DNA of 64,000 bases from Actinoallomurus spadix (GTDB lineage: Bacteria > Actinomycetota > Actinomycetes > Streptosporangiales > Streptosporangiaceae): positions 62,001-126,000 of the forward strand of contig NZ_JAMXMX010000013.1 of the NCBI RefSeq assembly GCF_024055725.1, read 5' to 3'. The position numbers and the translations under genes are program-made. Shown one piece after another: positions 4,124-11,085 of the stretch (the stretch's first letter is position 1; each line of letters starts with the position of its first letter). The notes under the pieces are model-generated. The model searched no databases and was not told where the DNA came from. It saw only the letters and a list, made by a program, of their open reading frames with translations.

Positions 4124-5566
4124 GTGACGAGTCTCGAGGAGCGCGTCGCCGATGATCCCGGCCCGGTGGCGGTGGACGGGGAGGCTCCCGGACGCCTGAA
4201 CCGCGGCCTGGCGTTCGCGGGCCGGCACCGCGTCCTCCTCGCCGTCCTCGCGCCGGCCGTCACGCTCCGCCTGGTCACGACGCTCGGCTACCGGGGCGCG
4301 ATGTGGTTCCCCGACTCCTACGACTACGTCAGCGGGGCGCTGACCCTTACCCCGAACCTCATCCGGCCCAGCGGATACTCCCTGTTCCTCTGGCTGCTGT
4401 CACCGTTCCACAGCCTGACCCTCGTCGTGCTCGTCCAGCACGCCATGGGCGTCACCGTGGGAGTGCTGGTGTACGCGCTGCTGCGGCACCGGTTCGGGCT
4501 GCCTGGCTGGGCGGCGTCCGCCGCCGCGGTCCCCGCGCTGTTCGACGCCTTCGGGATTCAGCTCGAACACCTGATCATGTCCGACACGCCGTTCACCTTC
4601 CTGCTGACGCTCGCGGTGACCCTCGCGCTATGGGACCCGCGGCCGAGCACCCGGCGGATGGCCCTCGTCTGCCTCCTCGTGGGCCTCGCGGCGGTCACCC
4701 GCTCGGTGGGCCTCCCGATCCTCGTCCTCACCCTGGCCTGGCTGGCCGTACGCCGGGCCGGGCGCCGCGCCGTCGTCGCCGGGCTCGTCGCCGGGCTGCT
4801 GCCCGTCGTGCTGTACGCCGGGTGGTTCTCCTCCCGTACGCACCGGTTCGCGCTGACGTACAGCACGGGGATCTTCCTCTACAGCAGGACGATGCCGTTC
4901 GCCGACTGCCACAAGATCAAGCCGCCGGTCGACGAACTGCCGCTGTGCATCAGCACGCCGCCCGCCGAGCGGGGACGCTCCCAGTTCTACATCTGGGGCC
5001 GGATCTCGCCGTTCCACCGGCTCGGCGAGCACAAGTTCACCCCCGACGTCGAGGGCCGGGCGGGCGACTTCGCCCAGCGGGCGATCACCGCGCAGCCCGG
5101 TGACTACGCCGAGATCGTGACCTCCGACCTGCTGCGGACGTTCCGGTGGCACCACCCGCCGTTCCCGGACTCCGAGACGTACGACCACTACCTCTTCCGG
5201 GTTCACCCGCCACAGCCGCCGCCCACGGCGGCGGCGCGGATGCGCGCGTACGACCCGGGCCACCTCACCACCCACGTCGTCCGGCCGTACGCCTCGATCA
5301 TGCGCACCTACCAGCGGTTCTTCTTCGTCCGTGGCGCGGTGTTCGGCCTGATCCTCCTGGCGGGCCTGGGCGCGCTGCTGCGCCGGCGCTGGGACGCGCT
5401 GCTGCCGTGGTCGGTGGCGGCGGTCGCCATCGTCGTGCCGCCGACCACCGCCGAGTTCGACTACCGCTACGTCATCCCCGCGCTCCCCGTCGCCTGCGTC
5501 GCCGCCGCCCTCGCCTTCACCCGCCCTGCCCCCCGTCCAGAACCGGCCCACCCGCGGGTCGACTAG
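4124..5566 (+). CDS. GT-C fold membrane glycosyltransferase (ArnT/PMT-like)
   Basis: Integral membrane glycosyltransferase of about 480 aa, likely transferring a sugar from a polyprenyl-phosphate donor on the outer face. The first membrane segment (HRVLLAVLAPAVTLRLVTTL) is followed by an acidic loop MWFPDSYDY, the position of the catalytic Asp in GT-C enzymes. At least eight further hydrophobic segments follow, and a soluble insert lies around residues 255-390. GTG at 4124 is preferred because GGAGGGG lies 5 bp upstream; an in-frame TTG at 4109 has no such site. The last 50 bp overlap a convergent small ORF. Acceptor and sugar are unknown. Confidence 0.8.
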   Translation: MTSLEERVADDPGPVAVDGEAPGRLNRGLAFAGRHRVLLAVLAPAVTLRLVTTLGYRGAMWFPDSYDYVSGALTLTPNLIRPSGYSLFLWLLSPFHSLTLVVLVQHAMGVTVGVLVYALLRHRFGLPGWAASAAAVPALFDAFGIQLEHLIMSDTPFTFLLTLAVTLALWDPRPSTRRMALVCLLVGLAAVTRSVGLPILVLTLAWLAVRRAGRRAVVAGLVAGLLPVVLYAGWFSSRTHRFALTYSTGIFLYSRTMPFADCHKIKPPVDELPLCISTPPAERGRSQFYIWGRISPFHRLGEHKFTPDVEGRAGDFAQRAITAQPGDYAEIVTSDLLRTFRWHHPPFPDSETYDHYLFRVHPPQPPPTAAARMRAYDPGHLTTHVVRPYASIMRTYQRFFFVRGAVFGLILLAGLGALLRRRWDALLPWSVAAVAIVVPPTTAEFDYRYVIPALPVACVAAALAFTRPAPRPEPAHPRVD

Positions 5567-8139: not shown

Positions 8140-8963
8140 GATGGCGACGGAGTCGCACGGCTGCGGAGCACAATTTCGGTAATTCCCGGTGAGCATCGCC
8201 GAAAGGGCGTCGTGCCCGGCAGGAATCACTTGCCGCCGGCGATCACACGGGGGTCGGTTTCGTCGCCGCGGTGATCCGATGTCACTGCGACATCGTCCCC
8301 GGATCTTGGACGACGATCCCTTCCTGGTGGAACCCTACGGAACCCCGTAGGCCCCGCCCAGAGCGGTGGATGACCCGTCAGGGCGCGTTGGCCCTTGACC
8401 GAACTCTTGCCGGGCATGCGGCTCTGGTCGTCGACGCAAGTGTGCTGGTGAACGCGCACAGCGAGCGCGCACTGTACGGTGCGCGCTCGCTGTGCGCGCG
8501 TACCGTACGCGCGGCCGCGCCGGTCGATGACGTCGCCGGCGCACGTCCGCGAGGGCGAGGGCGTGCGCGCCGGGCGGGCACGCTGGCCATGGCCGGCCTT
8601 TCCCACCCGTACCTTTCATGTTCATCCGGCCCGCTGGAGCCCGCTGGTGTGCGACTTCCGGCACTACTTCGGCCTGGAGCGGCGGCTCGGCCGTACGTTC
8701 CGCGCGGAGTACTGACATCCGCCGGTGACGGGGGCCGGAACGCCCATCTCATCCCGGGCGCGACGGTCGGGGCGGTGCGGCGTTTGACGTGGCGTGCCGG
8801 TGACCTGCACACTTGGTGTCATGCCAGCGTGCCGGATCCCGACCGCCCCCGTGGCCTCTCGCCACGCGGTCGCCGCGCTGTGTCCTTCGTGTTGTTGTCG
8901 CTGACCCCGTTCCAGCCGACCGTCAGCCCGCGGCACGCCGCCGCGCCACCGAAGGACTTCCCG
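8140..8963. other. Gene-poor stretch with hairpins
   Basis: About 820 bp with open frames on both strands but none with family-like or natural composition. It holds a 7-bp stem with tetraloop (CCTACGG-AACC-CCGTAGG, 8334-8351) and a 20-bp perfect hairpin at 8453-8498. No gene is supported. Confidence 0.6.
8453..8498. repeat. 20-bp perfect inverted repeat (hairpin)
   Basis: Left arm 8453-8472, 6-nt loop TGTACG, right arm 8479-8498; all 20 pairs match, and the arms begin CGCGCACAGCGAG. No T-tract follows, so it is either an actinobacterial-type terminator lacking U's or another structural site. Confidence 0.85.
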
Positions 8964-9365
8964 GTGAACCTTTCCGTCATCCCGGATCTGACCATGCAGG
9001 GCTCCGACAGCCCGTACGCCACCCGCCCGACCGTCACGGTCGGCCGCCTGGCCGGGCTCGTCCGTGAGCTCGCCGCCCGCCCCGGCGACTGGTGGCACCT
9101 CGCCCGCTTCGACGGCGTGCCCGTGCGGCTGCCCGGCGAGTCGGAGATCTTGCTGTACGGGTGGCCGCCCGGGCGCCGCGCCGCTCCCGCCGCCGACGTG
9201 CTCGCCGTGCTCGCCGGGGAGCTGTCCGAACGGACGATCACCGATCACGGGGTCGCGGAGCGCGCCGTACGGGCGAACCGGATCCGCGTGTACGGCGCCG
9301 GGCATCCGCGTGAACTGGTCAACCCCGGCCCCGCGTACGCGGTCAGCCTGCACGCGACCGTCTGA
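8964..9365 (+). CDS. Cysteine-dioxygenase-like cupin lacking the metal-binding HxH
   Basis: 133-aa protein whose C-terminal half aligns by eye with bacterial cysteine dioxygenase-type cupins: WWHLARFDGVPVRLPGESEI, LLYGWPPG, LAGELSERT, then RIRVYGAGHPRELVNPGPAYAVSLHA. In active relatives the segment after W.PG carries the iron ligands (HDHG). Here it reads RRAAPAADVLAVLAGELSER with no His, and only the third-ligand-equivalent H114 remains. Iron binding and thiol oxidation are therefore unlikely; a binding or regulatory role is conceivable. GTG at 8964 is chosen because GAAGGA lies 8 bp upstream; the frame is open back to 8271 but that part is not protein-like. Confidence 0.65.
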   Translation: MNLSVIPDLTMQGSDSPYATRPTVTVGRLAGLVRELAARPGDWWHLARFDGVPVRLPGESEILLYGWPPGRRAAPAADVLAVLAGELSERTITDHGVAERAVRANRIRVYGAGHPRELVNPGPAYAVSLHATV

Positions 9366-9386
9366 TCCGGCGCGCGCGGTCGGGCC

Positions 9387-9530
9387 CCCGCGTGCCGTCC
9401 GTCCCGTACCGCCCGGTCGGCCCCAATGTGGCGTCCGGCTCCGTACGCCCGGTCGGCCCCGGTGTGCCGTCCGGCTCCGTACGCCCGGTCGGCCCCGGTG
9501 TGCCGTCCGCTCCGTACCGCGTGGCCGGCG
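9387..9530. repeat. 36-bp tandem repeat, four copies
   Basis: Copies begin at 9387, 9423, 9459 and 9495. Copies 2 and 3 are nearly identical and 1 and 4 are diverged; the shared core is CTCCGTACGCCCGGTCGGCC. The array starts 22 bp after the stop of the cupin gene and ends 85 bp before the mannosyltransferase. There are no unique spacers. Confidence 0.85.
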
Positions 9531-9615: not shown

Positions 9616-11085
9616 ATGTCCCGCGTCTTTTCTTGGGTGATGCTGGGGGTGAGCATCGTCGCGATGGGCGCGGCGATGGTGCTCGGGACCTCGGCGGCCG
9701 TGCCGTACTTCGGACCGACCTGGCCGTTCCTGACCCTCGGTGGATCCCCGTCCTCGGCGACGGTCACGGCCCTGACGTGGACCGCGGCGCTGACCGCGGG
9801 CGCCGGGGTCCTGTCCGGGCTGTACGCCCTGCGCGGGGGCGCGTGGGTGAGCCCACGGCGGTTGCTGATCGCCGGTGCGGTCGTCGCCTGTGTCTACGCG
9901 CTGCTGCCGCCCGCCGGTTCCGTCGACATGATGAACTACGCGATCTACGGGCGGATCACCGACCTGGGCCGCGACCCGTACGTCACGACGCCGATGCGGC
10001 TGGCGCACACCGGTGACCCGGTCGGCCTGCTCATGCCGAGCGGCTGGCAGCGGGTCCCCACCGTGTACGGGCCGATCATGACGTTCATCCAGTGGCTGGC
10101 CGCGCACTTCGGCGGGAACTCGATGGCGCGGATCATCTTCCTGCTCAAGTGGGCCAACGCGGCCGCGTTCGTCGGCACCGGGGTGATCCTGCACCGGATG
10201 ACCGGTCCCGACCCGGTGCGCCGGCTCCGGGCCTGCCTGCTCTGGACGGCGAACCCGCTGATCCTGTTCTGGATGGTCGGCAGCGGGCACGCCGACGTCT
10301 TCGCGGTGTTCTTTTTGGTGGCGGCCCTGTACGCGGCGCGGCGCTCGGCCTTCGCGGGCGGGCTGCTGGGCGGCGCGGCGGTCGCCGTCAAGGCGTCGTT
10401 CCTGTTCCCCGCGGCGGGCCTGGTGCTCGCCGCGTGGTTGTCGCCGGCGCGGTTCCGGCGCGCGGGGGCCTCCGCCGCGGGCCTGCTGCTGGTCGCCGGG
10501 GGCGGCTACCTGCTCGCCGGGCCGGCCGCGCTGCACTCGCTGAACGCCCGGCTCGGCCGGAAGAAGGACCGGTACCTGCCGGTTCCGGAGTACATCCTGA
10601 CCCACCACGGCCTCTACGTGGTGTGGATGGCCGCGCTCGCGGTAGCGCTGACGGCGTTCCTGTGGTGGCGGGCCGGCCTGCCGTTCGCGCTGTGGCGGCC
10701 GGTGCCCGAGGAGAAGTGGCGCCCGCCGCTCGACGTGCTGCCCGTGGCGGTGCTCGCGTTCGGCACCACCCTGGTCTCGCCGCTGCAATACCCCTGGTAC
10801 GACGCCATGCTGCTGCCGATCCTGGCGCTGCTGCCGTACCGCCTGGACTGGACGCTGATCGCCCGGGGGGTCATGCTCGGGCTGTGCACGCTCCCCGGCG
10901 TGCGCGTGAACGGATACCAGCACTTCTACGTGCGCTGGGCCAACCTCGTGTGGCTGGCCGTCTTCATCGTCGTCGTCTGGTGGGGGACCCGCCGCACCGC
11001 CGCCGGACCGCCCGCCGAGTCGCCGGGACCGACGTCACCGTCGTCGGTGGCGCCGCCGCCGTCGTCCTCACCGGCTCCGGCCTGA
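9616..11085 (+). CDS. Polyprenol-phosphate-mannose-dependent alpha-(1,6)-mannosyltransferase-like membrane protein (MptB-like)
   Basis: 489-aa multi-pass protein resembling the MptA/MptB group of actinobacterial GT-C mannosyltransferases, which extend lipid-linked mannans at the membrane. Supporting segments are SVDMMNYAIYGRITDLGRDP, GPIMTFIQWLAAHFGGNSM, ANPLILFWMVGSGHADVFA and VSPLQYPWYDAMLLPILALL. The Asp in SVDMMNY occupies the GT-C catalytic loop position. A Pro/Ser-rich tail of about 30 residues follows the last membrane helix. Ribosome binding site is weak. Exact linkage is not determined by sequence. Confidence 0.8.
   Translation: MSRVFSWVMLGVSIVAMGAAMVLGTSAAVPYFGPTWPFLTLGGSPSSATVTALTWTAALTAGAGVLSGLYALRGGAWVSPRRLLIAGAVVACVYALLPPAGSVDMMNYAIYGRITDLGRDPYVTTPMRLAHTGDPVGLLMPSGWQRVPTVYGPIMTFIQWLAAHFGGNSMARIIFLLKWANAAAFVGTGVILHRMTGPDPVRRLRACLLWTANPLILFWMVGSGHADVFAVFFLVAALYAARRSAFAGGLLGGAAVAVKASFLFPAAGLVLAAWLSPARFRRAGASAAGLLLVAGGGYLLAGPAALHSLNARLGRKKDRYLPVPEYILTHHGLYVVWMAALAVALTAFLWWRAGLPFALWRPVPEEKWRPPLDVLPVAVLAFGTTLVSPLQYPWYDAMLLPILALLPYRLDWTLIARGVMLGLCTLPGVRVNGYQHFYVRWANLVWLAVFIVVVWWGTRRTAAGPPAESPGPTSPSSVAPPPSSSPAPA

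Follow-up and report, generated by a model that had tools for sequence, protein, structure and literature searches.

A metal-less cupin of the cysteine dioxygenase type, preceded by a candidate cysteine attenuator, in Actinoallomurus and related actinomycetes

Introduction

In the mycobacterial polycysteine attenuators of Canestrari et al. (2020), stalled ribosomes reportedly free the downstream ribosome-binding site. Pseudoenzymes are well known, and in cysteine dioxygenases (CDOs) the S-x-H-x-Y motif has an outer-sphere role.

In the parts of the literature available to us, leaderless short open reading frames (ORFs) with Cys codons are described as cysteine-responsive attenuators in Mycobacterium smegmatis (PMC9031893, PMC13236596), and the genes that they control are cysteine biosynthetic genes (PMC13236596). 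For Actinobacteria, Cys leader peptides ahead of cys operons had been predicted in 2005, and in the available text of that paper the mycobacterial cys leaders are described as having no conserved terminator hairpins (PMC1262725). Our literature search, which had limited coverage of subscription journals, returned among the matches listed neither a link between an actinomycete cysteine dioxygenase and a Cys leader nor a metal-less CDO family.

Here we describe a locus in a 64,000-nucleotide stretch of the Actinoallomurus spadix genome (GCF_024055725.1, contig NZ_JAMXMX010000013.1, positions 62,001 to 126,000; hereafter the window). As far as the available descriptions of the mycobacterial leaderless attenuators go, the leader at this locus likewise has Cys codons just ahead of its stop, a -35-like box at a spacing that would suit a leaderless start and a Cys-codon stretch that complements the ribosome-binding site downstream. 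The controlled gene differs, being a CDO-type cupin here and cysteine biosynthetic genes there, and the system here is a prediction from sequence. The leader is also like the candidate Cys leaders of Actinobacteria (PMC1262725) and those of the NCBIfam entry NF042934 ('putative leader peptide'), with a Cys run near the stop and a position upstream of a sulfur-related gene. Whereas the 2005 leaders are without conserved terminator hairpins in the text available, the leaders of the window family show a recurring complementarity to the Shine–Dalgarno (SD) sequence. With the ergothioneine dioxygenases 8QFL–8QFR, the closest solved structures in the CDO_I family, the window cupin shares its predicted cupin fold over residues 21–133; unlike them, it has neither H-x-H nor the third His nor the catalytic Tyr, and it has a conserved N terminus that is predicted to be disordered.

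Results

A cupin of cysteine dioxygenase descent

The cupin ORF in Table 1 had been called in a sequence-only reading of the window, and we confirmed its position, strand, start codon and length. That reading had also assigned the protein to the CDO-type cupins. The assignment held in a profile search with relatives and in structure prediction, although the protein's own score against Pfam CDO_I (PF05995) was 11.9 bits where the cut-off asks for 23. NCBIfam gave no match to the window cupin, and a search of PDB sequences with this protein alone returned no dioxygenase and just glycosyl transferases at E >1. It was relatives that tied the protein to the CDO family. All five His-bearing relatives tested scored above the CDO_I cut-off (28.3–41.3 bits); of two His-less relatives, one scored 15.1 bits and the other had no match. 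Profiles built from 57 and from 32 family members found solved cysteine and ergothioneine dioxygenases, with best E values of 1.2e-6 and 4.2e-7, respectively.

Table 1. Features of the leader–cupin locus, in window coordinates
Feature	Position	Strand	Remark
-35-like box TTGACG	8784..8789	+	37 nt upstream of leader ATG; position conserved
Weak -10-like hexamer CACACT (inferred)	8808..8813	+	18 nt after the -35-like box; missed by consensus scan
Poly-Cys leader ORF MPACRIPTAPVASRHAVAALCPSCCCR, ending ALCPSCCCR before the stop	8821..8904	+	Cys-ended short ORF at 93/94 family genes
Anti-Shine–Dalgarno arm (inferred role) GTCCTTCG	8882..8889	+	In leader Cys-Pro-Ser codons; complementarity
Cupin Shine–Dalgarno region CGAAGGAC	8950..8957	+	Complementary to 8882–8889
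Cupin ORF	8964..9365	+	GTG start, 133 aa; metal-less CDO-type cupin (fold and family evidence)
N-terminal conserved stretch (IPDLTM), codons 1–15	8964..9008	+	Predicted disordered, pLDDT <50
His-free stretch RRAAPAAD, codons 71–78	9174..9197	+	Place of HxH in relatives
Codon 114 (His)	9303..9305	+	Ligand supposed in the sequence-only reading; outside ligand column, not conserved
Codon 116 (Arg)	9309..9311	+	Third metal ligand position in His-bearing relatives

An AlphaFold2 model of the window cupin (pLDDT 82.5, pTM 0.73), whose input alignment contained His-bearing relatives and which is thus not fully independent of them, is a double-stranded beta-helix nearest to thiol dioxygenases. Its best structural match was the ergothioneine dioxygenase 8qfq (Z 13.8, rmsd 2.1, 110 residues), and Foldseek matched it to 8qfl with an E value of 9.9e-6; a His-bearing ortholog matched 8qfq with Z 16.4 and rmsd 2.0 over 119 residues. 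By descent and predicted fold, the window protein is a cysteine-dioxygenase-type cupin.

Loss of the metal site and of the catalytic Tyr

His residues occur in the window cupin solely at positions 45, 95, 114 and 130, so that HxH is absent under any alignment, as the sequence-only reading had noted. It had put the HxH segment about five residues shorter than in relatives; the segment is indeed shorter, but by three to four. The stretch from WPP to AGE measured 14 residues in six of the eight Actinoallomurus proteins and 15 in two, against 18 residues in 21 and 19 in four of 33 His-bearing family members, the pattern having misfired or failed in the other eight. A length of 14 was also found in 30 other members that lack at least one ligand (hereafter broken members).

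The further claim that one of three ligands, H114, survives did not stand. The third-ligand column is the residue directly before E-L-x-N, which reads HELTN, HDVRN or HRLVG in relatives; it is occupied by R in all eight Actinoallomurus proteins (R116 in the window), and H114 lies two residues upstream. We ruled out H114 as a surviving ligand, the same position being N in L009 and A in L010 of the same genus. The window cupin thus lacks the HxH and third His of a three-His Fe site, and all three His ligands are lost in all eight Actinoallomurus genomes. Because these eight genomes show the same state, the loss is not an artefact, and a frameshift or sequencing error hiding HxH, raised in the sequence-only reading, is ruled out.

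At the place of the S-x-H-x-Y motif the window cupin reads S-L-H-A-T, with the Ser and His retained and the Tyr gone. We found the Tyr in 6/6 canonical paralogs, in 3/33 His-bearing family members and in 0/61 broken members, where two of the 33 and six of the 61 were scored as lacking Tyr after the pattern failed. Since the Tyr is rare even among His-bearing members and absent from all broken ones, it seems to have been lost before the iron ligands. That the window cupin is a catalytically dead relative, as first suggested from its sequence, is well supported as a prediction by the absence of ligands and Tyr, the predicted cupin fold and the purifying selection described below.

Repeated ligand loss across the family

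Named contigs place the family in Actinoallomurus and Actinomadura, with Thermomonospora and Spirillospora. The window cupin as query had matches in 106 of the 297 host-family genomes, the weaker ones being canonical paralogs or chance, and in 8/8 genomes of Actinoallomurus; an ortholog query matched in 65/65 genomes of a second genus. When 394 genomes of the class were searched, hits above 180 bits were confined to the host family and the next scored at most 84 bits. When 26 lower-scoring loci were fetched, 25 had H-x-H and one was read in the wrong frame. We found no viral copies of the cupin by tblastn.

From 126 loci (L001–L126) we extracted 104 distinct proteins and retained 100, comprising 94 family members and six canonical paralogs. 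The proteins dropped were L001 (a paralog with no start assigned), L088 (in which the frame breaks off before the end), and L091 and L092 (a divergent and a partial copy, both from one genome). All three His are present in 33 of the 94 family proteins and at least one is missing in 61. These broken members have no His (26), one (26) or two (9) in the ligand columns, although for a few rows, L053 among them, the columns could be assigned only with doubt. Their states vary: none is left in Actinoallomurus, and Actinomadura shows H-x-Q, R-x-Q, D-x-R and others.

With the ligand columns left out, a quick tree of 137 columns shows nine state changes, of which starred branches force at least four. 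All three His are present in the canonical outgroup rows, so the changes are most simply losses. An AU test, with groups named after inspection of the tree, rejected a one-time loss of the metal site: placing all broken rows in one clade gave p 0.0008, or 0.026 when the most divergent branch was left out. The sequence-only reading had proposed a search for a conserved clade without HxH, and the eight Actinoallomurus proteins do form one supported branch (99, starred).

Other branches have changes of their own at this site. In six of eight proteins of a divergent branch (L104, L106, L107, L108, L110 and L111), a C-x-C occurs at the place of HxH (DCDC, ECAC, YCDC, HCEC, DCDC and ECRC, respectively), in a register uncertain by about one residue. 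All six keep the His of the third-ligand column, and L103 and L105 have no C-x-C; in the six, the ligands may have been exchanged and not lost. In the Actinomadura group, L089, L079, L086 and L090 carry extra residues in the metal-site loop or before NPG, as if loops at these places were free to vary.

A poly-Cys leader with complementarity to the cupin Shine–Dalgarno region

The strongest clue to the timing of cupin synthesis is the Cys-codon leader, on which the sequence-only reading was silent. Upstream of 93/94 family genes lies a short ORF whose last ten residues include two or more Cys, against 17/724 for random positions in these loci; when three or more Cys were required, the counts were 75/94 and 1/724. 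In the sole miss, L107, such an ORF abuts the assigned cupin start. None of the six canonical paralogs has a Cys-ended short ORF within 260 nt, and in one of them a short ORF containing Cys lies 333 nt away.

We found that the tail of the window leader, an ORF with tandem Cys codons before its stop, is complementary to the SD region of the cupin gene (GUCCUUCG with CGAAGGAC). In 26 loci this complementarity is lengthened to 11 bp (GUCCUUCGUGU with ACACGAAGGAC). Helices of at least 8 bp between leader and SD were present in 81/93 loci against 317/1023 control windows from the same loci, and helices of at least 10 bp in 54/93 against 85/1023, counts that are not independent because the loci are related; the helix was shorter than 8 bp in 12/93 loci. 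Four loci with CPA leaders have a compensated variant, GUGUCCUG with CAGGACAU, in which a U-A pair of the CPS type is replaced by G-C, and leaders of the Thermomonospora group use shifted pairs such as GUUGUUGUUGUC with GACGACAACAAC. The leader–cupin region of the window gave a folding z of -2.14, with the leader–SD helix included. Shuffling of the SD windows in a duplexfold energy test was weaker support for pairing with the ribosome-binding site, partly because some starts were mis-set: p was at most 0.05 in 60/93 loci and 0.06 in the window.

Codon choice is a stronger sign than the duplex-energy test. A Cys-Pro-Ser-Cys codon string, counted in any frame, lies within 200 nt upstream in 70/94 loci, and in 70/70 of these the Pro is CCT and the Ser TCG, with TGT in 69/70 at each flanking Cys. 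Across 12 window ORFs taken as background, CCT stood at 14% and TGT at 13%; two of the 12 are low in GC3 and perhaps miscalled.

The position of the -35-like box is conserved, so that the transcript would begin at or near the leader ATG. We counted the TTGAC box 52 times at -36/-37 in 54 loci with an M-x-A-type leader, the 54 being drawn from 76 loci in which the same script's rule gave a leader with three Cys or more. This may point to a leaderless leader transcript. A simple sigma-70 consensus scan upstream of the leader found no promoter, and Rfam gave no known RNA family at the leader up to an E value of 0.5. The window leader had no match to NF042934; among four leaders searched, only that of one relative gave a match, of 13.7 bits against a cut-off of 27. 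With its Cys codons and its complementarity, the window leader looks like a cysteine-responsive translational attenuator of the mycobacterial type, and we regard this regulatory part of our reading as well supported by the sequence comparisons.

Cys leaders elsewhere

We also searched the genome for other Cys leaders. The pattern TGYCCNWSNTGYTGY gave 29 matches against 32 in a backward control, that is, no excess, and its second match in the window (near 4800) has no leader context by eye. The pattern TGYTGYCGNTGA gave 95 matches against 24 in the backward control. Among 20 chosen TGYTGYCGNTGA stretches we saw no convincing second leader, and 17 of the 20 had no in-frame start codon; L311 is part of a longer ORF, and L304 and L309 are short ORFs with helices of 6–7 bp to the next ORF.

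In another family, probably from Streptomyces (L212–L236), His-bearing CDO-type genes have Cys-rich leaders in 13 of the 17 loci read. These leaders (..RCSCCCPSC, ..RCRCSSC) lie about 90–190 nt from the start, and their longest SD helix is 4–6 bp. Because such genes are His-bearing, a Cys leader alone is no sign of lost catalysis.

A proposed role at low cysteine

On balance we favour a reading in which the window gene encodes a pseudo-dioxygenase cupin, a non-catalytic binder made through a cysteine attenuator under cysteine shortage; we think this probable, if well short of certain. A cupin of the cysteine dioxygenase type would first have lost its catalytic Tyr, and the iron ligands would then have been lost in several lineages, including the whole of Actinoallomurus, under purifying selection. 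The short leader ORF would be translated first. With Cys-tRNA plentiful, the ribosome would reach the leader stop and UGU-CCU-UCG-UGU would pair with, and hide, the cupin SD sequence. When cysteine is scarce, the ribosome would stall on the Cys codons and cover the anti-SD arm, and the cupin would be made. The iron-free cupin would most likely bind a small thiol, a sulfur metabolite or a partner protein in its retained barrel, and the conserved disordered N terminus (PD.TM...) may be the contact. It could be a ligand sensor or carrier, as the sequence-only reading suggested.

Ancestry, the disappearance of every ligand, purifying selection, the leader and its complementarity stand as sequence results; from these and from analogy with the mycobacterial leaders, we infer attenuation, induction at low cysteine and the non-catalytic binding role. 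The metal site is gone, yet the gene is conserved and seemingly made only at cysteine shortage, so a different, non-catalytic job is probable. Translation at low cysteine would also be the wrong time for a protein that destroys cysteine, which fits a protein that no longer does so. A wider version holds that the family repeatedly made metal-free cysteine-starvation effectors, with the disordered N terminus as output, and that the divergent branch was remodelled to a Cys-ligated C-x-C beside the kept His; we offer this as a tentative idea, and a rather doubtful one.

Paralogs, selection and neighbourhood

CDO_I matches above the cut-off were found in all eight Actinoallomurus genomes, two to five in each. 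Every one of these genomes has at least one fetched paralog with HxH, the third His and S-x-H-x-Y, so that thiol oxidation could be covered by other proteins; in six of the genomes, one fetched locus did not fit this strict pattern. The intact paralog L001 of the window genome (G000:C8:29732-30124) reads VDVWLLCWTPESDTGWHDHD and by eye is like VDVWLLCWRAEDDTGWHDHD of a solved ergothioneine dioxygenase. Intact paralogs throughout the genus, together with an ergothioneine dioxygenase as top structural match, speak for another reading, in which the cupin is made at low cysteine and, as a partner, inhibits or stabilises one of the intact paralogous dioxygenases (cysteine or ergothioneine type), sparing thiols from oxidation. 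We consider such a partnership unlikely, given that identity to paralogs is 33–36% in the four of eight genus genomes with a second match.

In codon models fitted to subsets hand-picked from the tree, omega was 0.084 for the eight Actinoallomurus genes, 0.080 for 11 His-bearing Actinomadura-group genes and 0.166 for 21 broken Actinomadura-group genes. By this measure, constraint on the broken Actinoallomurus gene equals that on the intact one, and a decaying pseudogene is disfavoured. The doubled omega of the broken Actinomadura-group genes and the many ligand states among broken members would suit a drifting relic, functionless since catalysis went and with its leader kept by inertia. This has a low probability for the window gene, where omega equals that of His-bearing members and where the ORF, the leader and 8 bp of SD complementarity are found in 8/8 Actinoallomurus genomes. 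Elsewhere in the family, because 35/61 broken members keep one or two His and omega reached 0.166, some members may drift or retain a weak metal site.

The cupin could also still be an enzyme, either metal-independent or with other ligands such as the conserved Arg116. The invariant R at the third-ligand column in Actinoallomurus and the C-x-C near the HxH place in most of the divergent branch speak for this, but with none of three His left and the catalytic Tyr missing we rate continued catalysis as improbable as a relic.

At 62 named loci, a PhoD-like phosphatase family member was present in 41, with a median position upstream of the cupin, and a PspC-type member in 52, with a median position downstream; the gene calls are heuristic and seven proteins were annotated. 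Because these genes stand beside both His-bearing and broken members, they support orthology. The annotated neighbours in the window are a flavin reductase, a thioesterase, an FtsX permease and a gene without a Pfam match, and no sulfur-metabolism gene was among the seven annotated proteins. Directly after the cupin stop codon, positions 9373–9517 hold four 36-bp tandem copies with 88% matches. Further downstream lies a mannosyltransferase-like gene (9616–11085; a tentative label, without a Pfam match). That leader and cupin ORF mainly regulate this gene, the cupin protein being incidental, is very improbable, since selection acts on the cupin at the amino-acid level and since the family of same-strand genes shared by the five Actinoallomurus-group loci listed, where it comes after the cupin, is absent from the ten other loci listed, where the cupin persists.

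Discussion

A metal-free binder under cysteine control remains our preferred account of the window cupin. Neither its fold nor the regulatory principle is new; the novelty lies in a lineage of thiol dioxygenases that has lost its metal site repeatedly and yet has kept what looks like a cysteine attenuator. With its regulation conserved in both states, the family is a natural series for what becomes of a dioxygenase fold after its chemistry. If the attenuator is true, expression at low cysteine would be opposite to the need of a cysteine degrader, so that the change of function could be put to a direct test, and cysteine attenuation of the mycobacterial type would extend to a new gene and to other actinomycete genera.
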